Assembly: GCA_900314495.1 (NCBI GenBank) | Contig: OMVJ01000010.1 | Coordinates: 1-64,000 of the forward strand | Length of the DNA: 64,000 nucleotides | Reading direction: 5' to 3' | DNA from: an uncultured Olsenella sp. | GTDB taxonomy: Bacteria > Actinomycetota > Coriobacteriia > Coriobacteriales > Atopobiaceae | In this document: one piece after another, positions 9,723-56,147 of the stretch | Numbering within the stretch: the stretch's first letter is position 1 | How the letters are laid out: each line of letters opens with the position of its first letter | Position numbers and translations under genes: made by a program | The notes under the pieces: generated by a model | Told to the model about the DNA's origin: nothing | What the model saw: the letters and a program-made list of their open reading frames with translations, nothing else | The model's database searches: none

Positions 9723-9768
9723 TCTTGTTGGTTCTCCCCAATACTAGGATGAGCCGCCGTCCTTGCAT

Positions 9769-9795
9769 GAGACAAAAGGTGCGTCCCCCTGTCTC
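9769..9795. repeat. REP-like palindrome, family A
   Basis: Single GAGACA...TGTCTC unit identical in core to the arms at 2049-2110. It overlaps the TGA stop codon (9794-9796) of the radical SAM gene. Confidence 0.8.
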
Positions 9796-10708
9796 ACGCA
9801 GCGCGAGGCTCCAGCTGGCGCAGGTCGGCGATGGCGGCGTCCAGCTTGGCCAGGATCTTCTCGCGGTCCTGGGGCAGCTTGCCCTTGGTGTGCACCCACT
9901 GGGTGAAGGCGCGCTGCCAGGCGGGACCGTCACCCTCCGCAATGAGCTCGTCTGGCCGCACGTACTTGTTGTGGTAGCCCTCGAAGGTGCCGTCAATCTG
10001 CAGCAGGCTAACGAGCTCGCGCTCCTCCTCCATGCCCTCAAGGTCGGTGGCACGCACGAACTTGCCGTCCTCCTCCAGAAGGCCCAGCTCCGTCACGGGG
10101 CTCACGTTCATGTTGAAGTTGGTGACGAAGGCCGGCTGCAGCTCGTTGAGCAGGGCCGCCGTGGCACGGGCGTTCTCCATGCCGCGGCCGGCGCCGGCGA
10201 CGCCCGTCATGATGTGCGCACCAAGCTGGATACCGGCGGCGTGCAGGCGCGCCACCTGCTGCCGCGCCATGGCATTGGTGTGGTCCTTGTGCATGAAGCG
10301 CAGCACGTCGTCCAAACCAGACTCAATACCCACGTAGAACATCTGCCAGCCACGATTGCTCAGTGTACGAAGCTCCTCGTCACTCTTGCGCGAGATTGAC
10401 CAGATGGTGGCGTCGCTCACGATGCGCGTGACGGAGGGCAGGTAGTGGTCAATCATGTTCAGGATGGTCATGAGGCGGTCGAAGTCCATGTGCAGGGCGT
10501 CGCCGTCGCCCAACATGAGCTTGGTAGGCTTACCGCCCACGCTCTGCACGCGTTTGAGCTCCGCCTCCACCTGGTCCAGCGATACCTCACGGTAGGTGTC
10601 GCACTTGTACAGGTCGCAGAAGGCGCAGCGGTTGTACGGGCAACCGTGCGAGACGACGAGCCCGAACGCGCCGCGCTCGCCGGATGACTTGCAGATGCTG
10701 CCTGGCAT
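9794..10708 (-). CDS. Radical SAM protein
   Basis: 304 residues. N-terminal cysteines C23-x4-C28-x2-C31 (HGCPYNRCAFC) should hold the 4Fe-4S cluster; the x4 spacing, rather than the usual x3, is seen in Elp3-type and related radical SAM subgroups. Downstream, LMLGDGDALHMDFDRL and FYVGIESGLDDVLRFMHK match the SAM-binding face of the TIM barrel. There is no SPASM or B12 domain. The product is unknown, and no partner gene is adjacent. The stop codon is supplied by a REP-like element. Confidence 0.85.
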   Translation of the reverse strand: MPGSICKSSGERGAFGLVVSHGCPYNRCAFCDLYKCDTYREVSLDQVEAELKRVQSVGGKPTKLMLGDGDALHMDFDRLMTILNMIDHYLPSVTRIVSDATIWSISRKSDEELRTLSNRGWQMFYVGIESGLDDVLRFMHKDHTNAMARQQVARLHAAGIQLGAHIMTGVAGAGRGMENARATAALLNELQPAFVTNFNMNVSPVTELGLLEEDGKFVRATDLEGMEEERELVSLLQIDGTFEGYHNKYVRPDELIAEGDGPAWQRAFTQWVHTKGKLPQDREKILAKLDAAIADLRQLEPRAA

Positions 10709-10760
10709 GAGACCACCCCTCAGGTAATGCCCCGCAAAAGGATTGATTATTGTCTATATA

Positions 10761-10833
10761 TTACCCGCGGAGTGACAGAGCTAGACGCGGGTAAGGTGAT
10801 TACCCAAAAGTCTGCCACTCGTCACTCCGCGGG
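10761..10833. promoter_or_regulatory. Inverted repeats upstream of the radical SAM gene
   Basis: Two nested inverted repeats: TTACCCGCG/CGCGGGTAA (10761-10769 with 10786-10794) and the 13-bp CCCGCGGAGTGAC / GTCACTCCGCGGG (10764-10776 with 10821-10833). They share the left arm, so the structures are alternative. AT-rich sequence at 10741-10760 beside them may hold the promoter. Confidence 0.45.
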
Positions 10834-10880
10834 CAAAGGCTTGCGGTGGAGGCACCATGCCAGTGGGGCATCCTTTGCAT

Positions 10881-10941
10881 GAGACAAAAGGTACGTCCCC
10901 CATGTCTCATTGATGAGACGCGAGAACCGTCCCCGTGTCTC
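10881..10941. repeat. Two REP-like palindromes, family A, in tandem
   Basis: GAGACA...TGTCTC-type units at 10881-10908 and 10915-10941; the second has a diverged core (GAGACGCGAG). The second overlaps the ettA stop codon (10940-10942). Confidence 0.8.
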
Positions 10942-28682: not shown

Positions 28683-29501
28683 ATGACCTCTCCCTACAAG
28701 CTCTTGGCACTGGACATGGATGGAACGCTCCTTGACTCCAGGAAGCAGGTAAGCCCCAAGACGCAGCAGGCCATAGAGGAGCTTGCCAAGACGGGCGTCG
28801 CAGTCGCCTACTGCACCGGCCGCAGCCTGCCGGAGATGCGGGACGTGCGCCGTGCGCTGCCCTTCGTGCGCTATGGGTCCCAGGTCTCGGGTGCCCTCAC
28901 GTACGACTTCGAGACGGACACTGTAATAAGCGCCACGCCCCTCTCCACCGACATCTGCCTGCAGCTCATTCGCGCCGGCGCGCTGGAGAACGCCATGGTC
29001 CACATGCACTGCGTGCACGCGTCCGTCACCCGGCAGGTCGACATCGACCGCATGCACCTGGTGAGGATGGCCACGTACAGGAGCATGTTCGAGGAGGTCT
29101 GCACCCGAACCGACGACCTGGAGGCCTACGTGCGCGAGCACGAGGGACAGGTGCTCAAGATCAACCTCTACCACATGGACACGGAGTCCCGCGAGCGGAC
29201 GCGCAGGCGCATTCAGGGCCTTCCCATCAAGCTAGCCGACTCCGAGAGGACCTCGCTTGAGAGCACGGCCCAGGGCATCAGCAAGGACAAGGGCATCGAG
29301 AGGATCTGCAGCCGGTTGGGCATTGGAATGGACCAGGTGGTCGCCATCGGCGACGCCCCCAACGACACGGACGTGCTGCGCGCCGCGGGCTGCGCCGTGG
29401 CCATGGGCAACGCCACACCAGAGATTAAGCAGCTGGCAGACCTAGTTGTTGCAGACAACGACCACGACGGCATTGCTGAGGCGATTGAGCGGCTGTTCTA
29501 G
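28683..29501 (+). CDS. HAD-superfamily (Cof-type) phosphatase
   Basis: 272 residues. Motif I LALDMDGTLLDSRKQV, motif II YCTGRSLPEM, Lys in ISKDKGIERI, and VAIGDAPNDTDVLRAAG: the class IIB HAD sugar-phosphatase/Cof group. The ATG at 28683 has GGAG at suitable spacing. It lies 135 bp after icd with no shared function visible. One of three Cof-type proteins in the window; the substrate is unknown. Confidence 0.87.
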   Translation: MTSPYKLLALDMDGTLLDSRKQVSPKTQQAIEELAKTGVAVAYCTGRSLPEMRDVRRALPFVRYGSQVSGALTYDFETDTVISATPLSTDICLQLIRAGALENAMVHMHCVHASVTRQVDIDRMHLVRMATYRSMFEEVCTRTDDLEAYVREHEGQVLKINLYHMDTESRERTRRRIQGLPIKLADSERTSLESTAQGISKDKGIERICSRLGIGMDQVVAIGDAPNDTDVLRAAGCAVAMGNATPEIKQLADLVVADNDHDGIAEAIERLF

Positions 29502-29532
29502 CACGAGGATTGACGAGTGCGACTGCACGCAT

Positions 29533-29559
29533 TTGCCAGCAACGTGCGAGGTTGTGCGC
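29533..29559 (+). repeat. Left direct repeat flanking the DUF4160 cassette
   Basis: 27-bp repeat, 25 of 27 bases identical to 30484-30510 (core GCAACGTGCGA-N-GTTGTGCGC), same orientation. It lies 32 bp after the HAD gene stop. An AGCAACGTGC/GCACGTTGCT inverted repeat (29538-29547 with 29568-29577) overlaps it and may end the HAD transcript. Confidence 0.75.
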
Positions 29560-29613
29560 AGCCTGCGGCACGTTGCTAATGGCGATCCCCCCGGTCAACG
29601 ATGGCCTTCTGCC

Positions 29614-29892
29614 CTAGCCCCTGTAGTAGCCCTGGTCGCTTATCGATGACCAAGTCTTGTACATGTCCTTGTAGTTAACCTTGATGAAGGCCTGAATCTT
29701 CCGAAGCTCGCGATCGGTCAGGCGCCCCCGGTTACGCACCTCGCTGCTTCCATCGCTACGGACAAAGAGCTTCGCCGACCCCTCCTCGGTGAGACGGGAG
29801 TCGCTGGCGTGGACGTGCATGCACTCGACAATGCAATGCGCCGTGAAATACAGGTAGTACCCCGCCACCTTGAACTCGAAGTACTTGGGCAT
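29614..29892 (-). CDS. DUF4160-domain protein
   Basis: 92 residues. Shows the DUF4160 layout: an N-terminal beta hairpin (FEFKVAGYYLYFTAHC), a conserved HVHAS segment, AKLFVRSDGSSEV, and a C-terminal helix (LTDRELRKIQAFIKVNYKDMYKTW). DUF4160 genes often sit in small toxin-antitoxin-like pairs (typically with DUF2442), but no activity is established. Last gene of a three-gene minus-strand cassette, 2 bp after the 75-residue gene. Confidence 0.7.
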   Translation of the reverse strand: MPKYFEFKVAGYYLYFTAHCIVECMHVHASDSRLTEEGSAKLFVRSDGSSEVRNRGRLTDRELRKIQAFIKVNYKDMYKTWSSISDQGYYRG

Positions 29893-29894
29893 GG

Positions 29895-30122
29895 CTACTC
29901 CTCAATGAACTGGCGATTTGCGGCGAAGTAGTCTCCAACAACAGCAAGCTCAATGTCGTCCATGTTCGTCTCGAGCACCGCGCCGTCGCCGGCAAGAACT
30001 GCGGCGTGGGTAGGAATGTTGAGGTTCAGCACACGGACGTTTCCCTCGGGAGTGCGGGTGAACGCGTACCCACCCACGACGATGTCAGCGCCATCCGCGA
30101 CGCTACGCAGCCTCTCGTCCAT
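29895..30122 (-). CDS. Small protein of unknown function, DUF4160 cassette
   Basis: 75 residues, acidic, no membrane segment. Mixed alpha/beta: GADIVVGGYAFTRTPEGNVRVLNLN then an acidic C-terminus. I do not recognise the family. GGAGG lies 6 nt before the ATG. It overlaps the gene before it by 20 bp and leads directly into the DUF4160 gene, so the three are probably cotranslated. An antitoxin-like or regulatory role is only a guess from context. Confidence 0.6.
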   Translation of the reverse strand: MDERLRSVADGADIVVGGYAFTRTPEGNVRVLNLNIPTHAAVLAGDGAVLETNMDDIELAVVGDYFAANRQFIEE

Positions 30123-30390
30123 AGCACACCTCCACGCGCTCGATCTGCCCCAGGAACCGTTCCGGATCCATGTACAGGTTCTCGAGGATCGGGACGAGGT
30201 CGATGTACTCCTCCACGGGCGAGGCGAGCCCGGCGTACTGTGCCTGGCAGACCAGGTAGCCAGCGTCCCAGCCGGTCACGCACAGGTAGCGGACCAGGCG
30301 GGACGAGGTGCGGAACCTGACGTCGCACCCGCCGTAGCTAAAGCACGTCATATCGCCGCTGCTGCTGAGCCGCGCGACCCCGTCGCCCAT
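30103..30390 (-). CDS. Small protein of unknown function, first gene of the DUF4160 cassette
   Basis: 95 residues from the ATG at 30390, which has GAGGGGG at 6 nt; a GTG at 30411 would add seven residues. The sequence is compact alpha/beta (RLVRYLCVTGWDAGYLVCQAQY, then EEYIDLVPILENLYMDPERF), three cysteines, no membrane segment. I do not recognise the family. First of three overlapping genes flanked by direct repeats. Confidence 0.6.
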   Translation of the reverse strand: MGDGVARLSSSGDMTCFSYGGCDVRFRTSSRLVRYLCVTGWDAGYLVCQAQYAGLASPVEEYIDLVPILENLYMDPERFLGQIERVEVCYGREAA

Positions 30391-30483
30391 GTTCGTCCCC
30401 CTCGCATCCACACCGAATCAATCGCCCCCATATTAGCCAACTGCGACAGTCATGACCGCCGAAACTACGAACATCATGCGCAG

Positions 30484-30510
30484 TTGCCCGCAACGTGCGA
30501 AGTTGTGCGC
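30484..30510 (+). repeat. Right direct repeat flanking the DUF4160 cassette
   Basis: Near-identical copy (25 of 27) of 29533-29559, 951 bp away in the same orientation. It includes a GTTGC-CC-GCAAC mini-hairpin (30483-30494). The pair brackets exactly the three small genes. Confidence 0.75.
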
Positions 30511-30550: not shown

Positions 30551-30958
30551 TCACACCCACCGGAAGCAGGTGGCCGTCATGCGGGCCACGGGGGTGCCCA
30601 GCTCGTCGCGCACGTCGATGGTGTAGAAGCCCAGCGACCGGCCACTCTTGTCTGCGTCGCAGGTGGCAATGAGGCGCCCACCCTTGGCCCCGCTCATGAA
30701 CTCGATGGAGTTGCTGACGGAGACCGTGGGCTGCTCGCCGATGTTGCAGGCAATGGCCAGGGCGAAGTCCGCCAGCGTGAAGATGGCACCGCCCATCACG
30801 CCACCCTGGGCGTTGCGATGGATGTCCTGAATGTCGAACTCGCACACGGCATGGCCGCGCGCGGCCTCCACCACACGGCAGCCGCAGGCCTCCGTGGCAT
30901 AGTGGTCGTTGGCAAAGAGGGCGCGGACCTCGTCTATGGTGCAGCTCTCGTCAATCAC
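30551..30958 (-). CDS. PaaI-type hotdog thioesterase
   Basis: 135 residues, single hotdog fold. The family pattern is present: HAVCEFDIQDIHRNAQGGVMGGAIFTLADFALAIACN, in which the Asn/Gly pocket and the Asp on the central helix (TLADFA) form the active site. Hydrolyses an acyl-CoA thioester. Start is GTG at 30958 with GAGGAGG 6 nt upstream, overlapping nothing but only 11 nt after the CmpB-like gene, so the two are an operon. Confidence 0.85.
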   Translation of the reverse strand: MIDESCTIDEVRALFANDHYATEACGCRVVEAARGHAVCEFDIQDIHRNAQGGVMGGAIFTLADFALAIACNIGEQPTVSVSNSIEFMSGAKGGRLIATCDADKSGRSLGFYTIDVRDELGTPVARMTATCFRWV

Positions 30959-30969
30959 GTTGGCCCTCC

Positions 30970-31893
30970 TCAGCCGTTGATGACCATGTTCTGGAACCGC
31001 TCGGACATGAACTCGTCCGTGTAGTGGTCGTCTATCCACTGCTCGAAGCCGTTCTCCGGCGGGACGCCCCGGTCGCGCTCCGCCCGCCTGCTGAAGCACG
31101 AGAGGGTCATAAAGATGTCCAAGCCAAGATACGCCGCCAGCAGGGCGACAAAGACCACCTGCCGCTGGGTGGTGGGCTCGCCGATGGTCCAGAGCAGCCA
31201 CGGCATCACGAACTTGGTCCAGACCAGGCCGAGCAGACCCCACATGAACAGGAACGGGATTGAGACCCACTTGGTCAGATGGCCGGGCACGTTGGAGTAG
31301 TCCCAGGACACCGCGCCCATGAAGGTCTCCATGCTCCAGCCGGTCACCTGCTCCAAGAGGCCGCCGACCACCATGCCCACCAGGAAGATCTGCCACCAGG
31401 TGGCGTGCTTCTTGCGAAGCTCGAAGCAAATGAGCGTCAGCAAAACCGCGCCCACGCCGTACAGCGGCGAGAAGGGACCCCACACCAGCCCCACGCGGCT
31501 CTGCGTGAGACCGGCGGTGATGAACATCCAGATCTCCTCGATGATCAGGCCGCCCACGCTGCCCACGAAGAAGATGATCACGACGGGGTACCAGCTGATT
31601 TCCAGGTTGTCCAGGAAGTTCTCGCGCACGATGGCCTCTGCCTTGCGGACCAGCTTGCGCTGGCCCGGCGTAAGGCGCAGGGGCATGTCCATCTCTTGGC
31701 CCAGCGCCTTGGCGGCGTGGTACATCTCCAGCCCGCGCGCGGCAATCTGCACATCCTCCGGCACGTTCTGGCTTTCCGCCACGCGGTGGATGCGCTTGCC
31801 GCGGCCCAGCCAGAGGAAGAACTCGCGGACCAGCCAAACGATGCCGCGCACGATTGCATAGATGATGAGCAGCGTGACAAGTAGCCAGAACAC
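30970..31893 (-). CDS. Putative ABC transporter permease, CmpB family (type IV)
   Basis: 307 residues. One N-terminal membrane helix, a soluble helical stretch (about 30-95), then five or six further helices. The CmpB domain is clear: VGGLIIEEIWMFI, GLVWGPFSPLYGVGAVLLT, WDYSNVPGH. The family is called ABC-transporter type IV, but no ATPase or binding protein is beside it, so the transport role is doubtful. GTG start at 31893 with AGGAG at 7 nt. Confidence 0.75.
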   Translation of the reverse strand: MFWLLVTLLIIYAIVRGIVWLVREFFLWLGRGKRIHRVAESQNVPEDVQIAARGLEMYHAAKALGQEMDMPLRLTPGQRKLVRKAEAIVRENFLDNLEISWYPVVIIFFVGSVGGLIIEEIWMFITAGLTQSRVGLVWGPFSPLYGVGAVLLTLICFELRKKHATWWQIFLVGMVVGGLLEQVTGWSMETFMGAVSWDYSNVPGHLTKWVSIPFLFMWGLLGLVWTKFVMPWLLWTIGEPTTQRQVVFVALLAAYLGLDIFMTLSCFSRRAERDRGVPPENGFEQWIDDHYTDEFMSERFQNMVING

Positions 31894-55892: not shown

Positions 55893-56147
55893 TTATAGCA
55901 GGTGATGCTGCATCCGCTCGCTTGAGCGCAGCGTGGGCGGAGGGGCAGCCGCATCCCACGAGACGGCATCATTCAGCACCGTGAGCCTGTCTCGGAAGAA
56001 TTCCAGGTCGGCCAACTGGGCAAACACTCCGCCGCGTGCAATGAGCGGCTTGATGTCCGCGAGCCGGATGCTCCCGTCCGAGAAGTACGCGTACACCGTG
56101 TAGTCGTCGCCCGCAACGGCCTGAACGACGGAAGGCATGTACTCCAT
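55893..56147 (-). CDS. DUF2442-domain protein, altered C-terminus
   Basis: 84 residues. DUF2442 pattern: MPSVVQAVAGDDYTVYAYFSDGSIRLADIKPLIARGGVFAQLADLEFFRDRL then VSWD. After the conserved Trp-Asp the usual end (a short loop and xLDPxxLYE) is replaced by Ala/Pro-rich residues and the reading ends, so the 3' end looks remodelled. DUF2442 proteins usually pair with DUF4160, and a DUF4160 remnant lies directly upstream. Start at 56147, or the ATG at 56138. Confidence 0.6.
   Translation of the reverse strand: MEYMPSVVQAVAGDDYTVYAYFSDGSIRLADIKPLIARGGVFAQLADLEFFRDRLTVLNDAVSWDAAAPPPTLRSSERMQHHLL

Follow-up and report, generated by a model that had tools for sequence, protein, structure and literature searches.

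Proteins of the DUF4160 family have been described as toxins that act beside a DUF2442 partner. In Dickeya dadantii 3937 the DUF4160/DUF2442 pair forms DhiTA, with growth inhibition by DUF4160, rescue and autorepression all reported, and the toxin and antitoxin action of the pair has been shown in both D. dadantii and E. coli (PMC8198452). In a plasmid module of Thermus, DUF4160 is the likely toxin and DUF2442 the antidote, with a plasmid that keeps DUF4160 without DUF2442 found not to be introducible, and the reverse construct found to be introducible (PMC12724237).

The window analysed here, a 64,000-nt stretch of DNA from an uncultured Olsenella sp., carries a DUF4160 gene as the last of three small genes, all on the minus strand and lying between two direct repeats. 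An earlier note on this DNA had placed three small genes between repeats that match at 25 of 27 positions with a spacing of 951 bp, which is borne out. The first and second genes overlap by 20 nt, and 2 nt separate the second from the third.

30103..30390, minus strand: DUF7724 gene, operon gene 1, 95 residues; candidate antitoxin (PF24849, E = 1.5e-28)
29895..30122, minus strand: DUF7723 gene, operon gene 2, 75 residues; candidate antitoxin helper or adaptor (PF24848, E = 2.1e-27)
29614..29892, minus strand: DUF4160 gene, operon gene 3, 92 residues; candidate toxin of a family homologous to DhiT (PF13711, E = 1.1e-8)

Each of the three proteins exceeds the curated cut-off of its family in a Pfam profile search, and the statement in the same note that two of them are unrecognised was wrong. 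The DUF4160 protein scores 35.6 bits against PF13711 (cut-off 23), a profile also matched by 9 of 9 members of its clade, and its residues E23, H26, H28, K41 and W81, unchanged in all three DUF4160 clades compared, are a candidate active site. The DUF7724 gene starts at an ATG with a GAGGGGG ribosome site, with an alternative GTG at 30411 that would extend the protein to 102 residues. DUF7724 and DUF7723 are functionally undescribed Pfam families, mentioned by no publication found in the literature searched. A PDB fold search with AF2 models of DUF7724 (pLDDT 91) and DUF7723 (pLDDT 94) returned no confident match, the best for DUF7724 reaching a Foldseek E of 0.05 and a Z of 3.9, and the best for DUF7723 being a weak, polo-box-like match with a Z of 4.9. 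A sequence search against solved structures likewise gave no match, and a PHROGs search gave weak matches only, to DUF4160.

The operon resembles DhiTA in its small DUF4160 protein, its compact organisation, its small partner and its overlapping or abutting genes. It differs in that DUF7724 and DUF7723 precede DUF4160, whereas in DhiTA the toxin gene comes first and the partner is DUF2442. The DUF4160 component is present without an adjacent DUF2442. The nearest DUF2442 gene lies 25 kb away (55893-56147, minus strand), and the clade profile recognised no DUF4160 gene beside it. By eye, the pattern YIDLVPILENLY..DPE.F of DUF7724 resembles DUF2442, and DUF7724 was considered as a diverged DUF2442; hhalign gave no support to this proposal, with neither the DUF7723 nor the DUF7724 profile showing similarity to DUF2442. 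The operon would work like DhiTA and yet lies outside the DUF4160/DUF2442 type, because a DUF2442 partner was looked for and not found. With the Persistence Enhancing Module of Thermus thermophilus, in which loss of the partner is not tolerated, the operon has the DUF4160 family in common; unlike that two-gene, plasmid-borne module with its DUF2442, the unit in the window is chromosomal, has three genes and has no plasmid match. The toxin Aave_1720 of Acidovorax, considered as a further DUF4160 relative, was rejected as BrnT-like.

Another set of DUF4160 pairs occurs in the same bacterial family, in this genome at L243 1068-1770 (C29:56443-56712 and the region upstream), and also at L227, L228, L231, L232, L235, L236 and L239. 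These likewise have a small upstream partner overlapping the DUF4160 gene, but their DUF4160 proteins belong to another clade (31-36% identical) and the partner has no Pfam family. The consensus of this partner, M-YxYxELxDGTxVAYSDVxxDGTVxVxVERP...GFSxxEL...NAPLI, shows no profile similarity to DUF7723 or DUF7724, and a proposed relationship with DUF7723 was rejected on this comparison; the partner is a candidate new antitoxin family.

The order DUF7724-DUF7723-DUF4160 is conserved at 11 loci (the window, L045, L046, L047, L053, L056, L059, L060, L157, L156 and Treponema L041), with dN/dS values of 0.05-0.33 for all three genes indicating strong purifying selection. Of 140 genomes from the bacterial family, 19 carry DUF7724; both congeners examined lack it. 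DUF7723 is present in 2 of the 396 genomes of the phylum sample. The patchy presence of the operon, its low G+C content in other genomes and its conserved order argue for horizontal spread. Searches of plasmids and of viral contigs returned no relatives of the operon, and a phage origin was rejected. Two records labelled Bacteriophage sp. do carry DUF7724 (L155 and L156; GenBank MT835787 and MT837901), however these are likely bacterial contamination, because they also contain chromosomal genes, among them smpB, rnr and engA.

Loss of the genes is asymmetric. Among the 140 family genomes, every intact DUF4160 of the operon clade lies beside both DUF7724 and DUF7723 (8 of 8 cases), the other traces of this clade being one frameshifted copy, one pseudogene and fragments. 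An intact DUF7724 domain without an intact DUF4160 occurs at about 13 loci. These counts are approximate, since drafts and loci at contig ends are among the data, and the events are not independent, since several loci descend from one ancestral insertion. DUF7724 on its own is under selection in several lineages, including Clostridia (L042 and L043), with dN/dS values of 0.06-0.18 in pairs where at least one DUF7724 stands without DUF4160. That intact DUF4160 of this clade is never alone, and DUF7724 often alone and under selection, fits a toxin neutralised by DUF7724, perhaps with DUF7723. The general features of type II toxin-antitoxin systems are seen here, namely small coupled genes that are conserved as a unit and spread horizontally, and a candidate toxin gene never found intact without its candidate antitoxin, which may itself stand alone.

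The operon lies between two genes that are neighbours elsewhere, and the repeats lie inside this interval.

28683..29501, plus strand: HAD hydrolase, left flank (PF08282, E = 9e-50; G001 ortholog at 51%)
29528..29559, plus strand: direct repeat copy 1, between the convergent HAD and DUF4160 genes; member of a dispersed family
30478..30510, plus strand: direct repeat copy 2, between the start of the DUF7724 gene and the end of the thioesterase gene; matches the full family consensus
30551..30960, minus strand: PaaI-type thioesterase-like gene, right flank; named from reading the sequence alone

The earlier note had called for a search for an empty site in close relatives, and one was found in the congener G001 (L153). 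Here the thioesterase ortholog (62% identical) directly follows the HAD hydrolase as its convergent neighbour, with the HAD stop at 2676, the thioesterase stop at 2834, 157 bp between them and no operon, compared with about 1050 bp between the two genes in the window. The operon was either gained in the lineage of the window or lost in G001, with gain favoured because the distribution of the operon is patchy. The repeat family of the window was not found in G001, including at the empty site. A G001-specific intergenic repeat (GCCCCGGACCGACGAGCCC), unrelated to that of the window, occupies L153 2751-2826. Between the thioesterase gene and proA, which are adjacent in G001, the window also carries a PF06541 membrane gene (30970-31893), so that this locus has seen another gain or loss.

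The repeats themselves, at 29533-29559 (TTGCCAGCAACGTGCGAGGTTGTGCGC) and 30484-30510 (TTGCCCGCAACGTGCGAAGTTGTGCGC), align at 91% identity over 32 nt when extended to 29528-29559 and 30479-30510, and their 21-nt core occurs twice, against 0.01 occurrences expected in shuffled windows. Copy 1 is able to form a hairpin with 29560-29577. Both are members of a species-specific, dispersed intergenic family with the consensus GCGCAGTTGCCCGCAAC-N6-AGTTGTGCGC, of which pattern searches of the same genome located at least five further copies, on C35, C42, C24 and C38 and, more weakly, on C11. None of these adjoins the operon, and on C35 and C38, the contigs with ORFs listed, the repeat lies between unrelated genes. 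Allowing three mismatches, the family was found in none of the 139 other family genomes, those bearing the operon included. The two flanking copies are nevertheless each other's closest relatives, with a common 6-nt spacer, GTGCGA, that differs from the spacers of the other copies, suggesting that one was probably duplicated from the other.

A control within the window shows such an arrangement around another gene. The ordinary gene at 9794-10708, which is radical-SAM-like with a CxxxCxxC motif, lies between copies of a different dispersed repeat (GAGACAAAAGGTGCGTCCCC) at a spacing of 1112 bp, and pairs of this kind were also seen on further contigs. This repeat region spans 9763-10907, with two more copies head to head at 2056-2103. 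Since the flanking repeats belong to a dispersed family, an ordinary gene is likewise flanked, and the repeats differ between the orthologous insertions L047 and L053, flanking repeats alone are poor evidence of a cassette boundary, and those of the window are not specific to the operon. The earlier note's proposal of a mobile or exchangeable cassette therefore stands in part, with the empty site, patchy distribution and several unrelated sites supporting an acquired unit, and the repeats as its boundaries weakly supported at most. The outcome that the note named as counting against its proposal, a dispersed repeat unrelated to the cassette, was likewise seen in part.

We consider it probable that the three genes form a horizontally acquired, toxin-antitoxin-like operon, with DUF4160 as the toxin and DUF7724, probably together with DUF7723, as the antidote. 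The toxin-antitoxin-like character suggested by the earlier note agrees with DUF4160 being an experimentally supported toxin family. We infer that DUF4160, encoded by the last gene, would act as the toxin, and that DUF7724, encoded by the first gene and probably assisted by DUF7723, would neutralise it, taking the place that DUF2442 holds in DhiTA-type pairs; the same proteins may repress the operon. Because the genes overlap or nearly touch, their translation would be coupled, with the antidote produced before the toxin. The operon would have inserted between the HAD-hydrolase and thioesterase genes after the species split from G001, and the two repeat copies probably derive from a single resident copy that was duplicated during insertion or later. 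Against the toxin-antidote model stand the lack of profile similarity between DUF2442 and either DUF7724 or DUF7723, the lack of a confident fold match for these two, the gene order, which is the reverse of DhiT-DhiA, and the absence of any match between the PADLOC models of anti-phage defence systems and the operon proteins at E 1.

That the direct repeats are instead true scars of a small, recombinase-free mobile cassette that inserts with target duplication is a possibility we regard as unlikely, though it draws on several sites. The spacer GTGCGA is confined to the two flanking copies. In genus g28 the operon lies inside the 5' end of hsdR (a name given by inspection of the sequence), with the first ~18 hsdR codons fused to DUF7724 and the intact hsdR start recurring after DUF4160; the first 42 nt (L059) or 55 nt (L060) of hsdR are thereby duplicated as direct repeats. 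At L062 DUF7724 alone remains between 48-nt hsdR repeats, and hsdR starts free of the operon are seen at L200 and L191. The copies at L045 and L050 follow a tRNA-Val gene and have a short CCACCA-containing repeat downstream, and at L053 23-nt repeats adjoin the operon. Insertion with target duplication is possible from these sites, however the sequence and length of the repeats vary at every one of them, no recombinase or shared termini were found across the insertion sites, and no flanking repeat was found at L046, L056, L157 or L041. The orthologous insertions L047 and L053 align in the operon and outer flanks and yet have unlike repeats, and on this ground a 248-nt repeat around L047 was not accepted as a scar of insertion. 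The ordinary gene of the window flanked by dispersed repeats also counts against this explanation. More doubtful is the fuller proposal of a ~0.9 kb recombinase-free toxin-antitoxin cassette that spreads among unrelated sites (intergenic repeats, the 5' end of hsdR, the 3' end of tRNA genes), duplicating a target of 20-55 nt each time.

The persistence of solo DUF7724 under selection could reflect a separate function of this protein, and DUF7724 may be the functional unit, as a regulator or ligand-binding protein, with DUF7723 and DUF4160 as dispensable accessories. We think this improbable, as DUF4160 is a tested toxin in DhiTA and a likely one in Thermus, and the constant company of DUF7724 with intact DUF4160 of the operon clade is the dependence expected of a toxin. 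Least credible is the suggestion that these are ordinary resident genes with a housekeeping role, and that the repeats are incidental. The G+C content of the operon (61.5%) is indeed near that of the window (63.7%), however in other genomes it falls 9-13 points below the locus average, and the genes are missing from both congeners and most of the family, with an empty site in G001; the patchy distribution already contradicts this reading.

If the toxin-antidote model is true, the DUF4160 toxin family would switch its antidote, being paired with DUF2442, with DUF7724 and DUF7723, or with the un-named upstream family. The operon is also a possible study case of target duplication around a recombinase-free module. 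For DUF7724 and DUF7723, the model would provide a first testable function.
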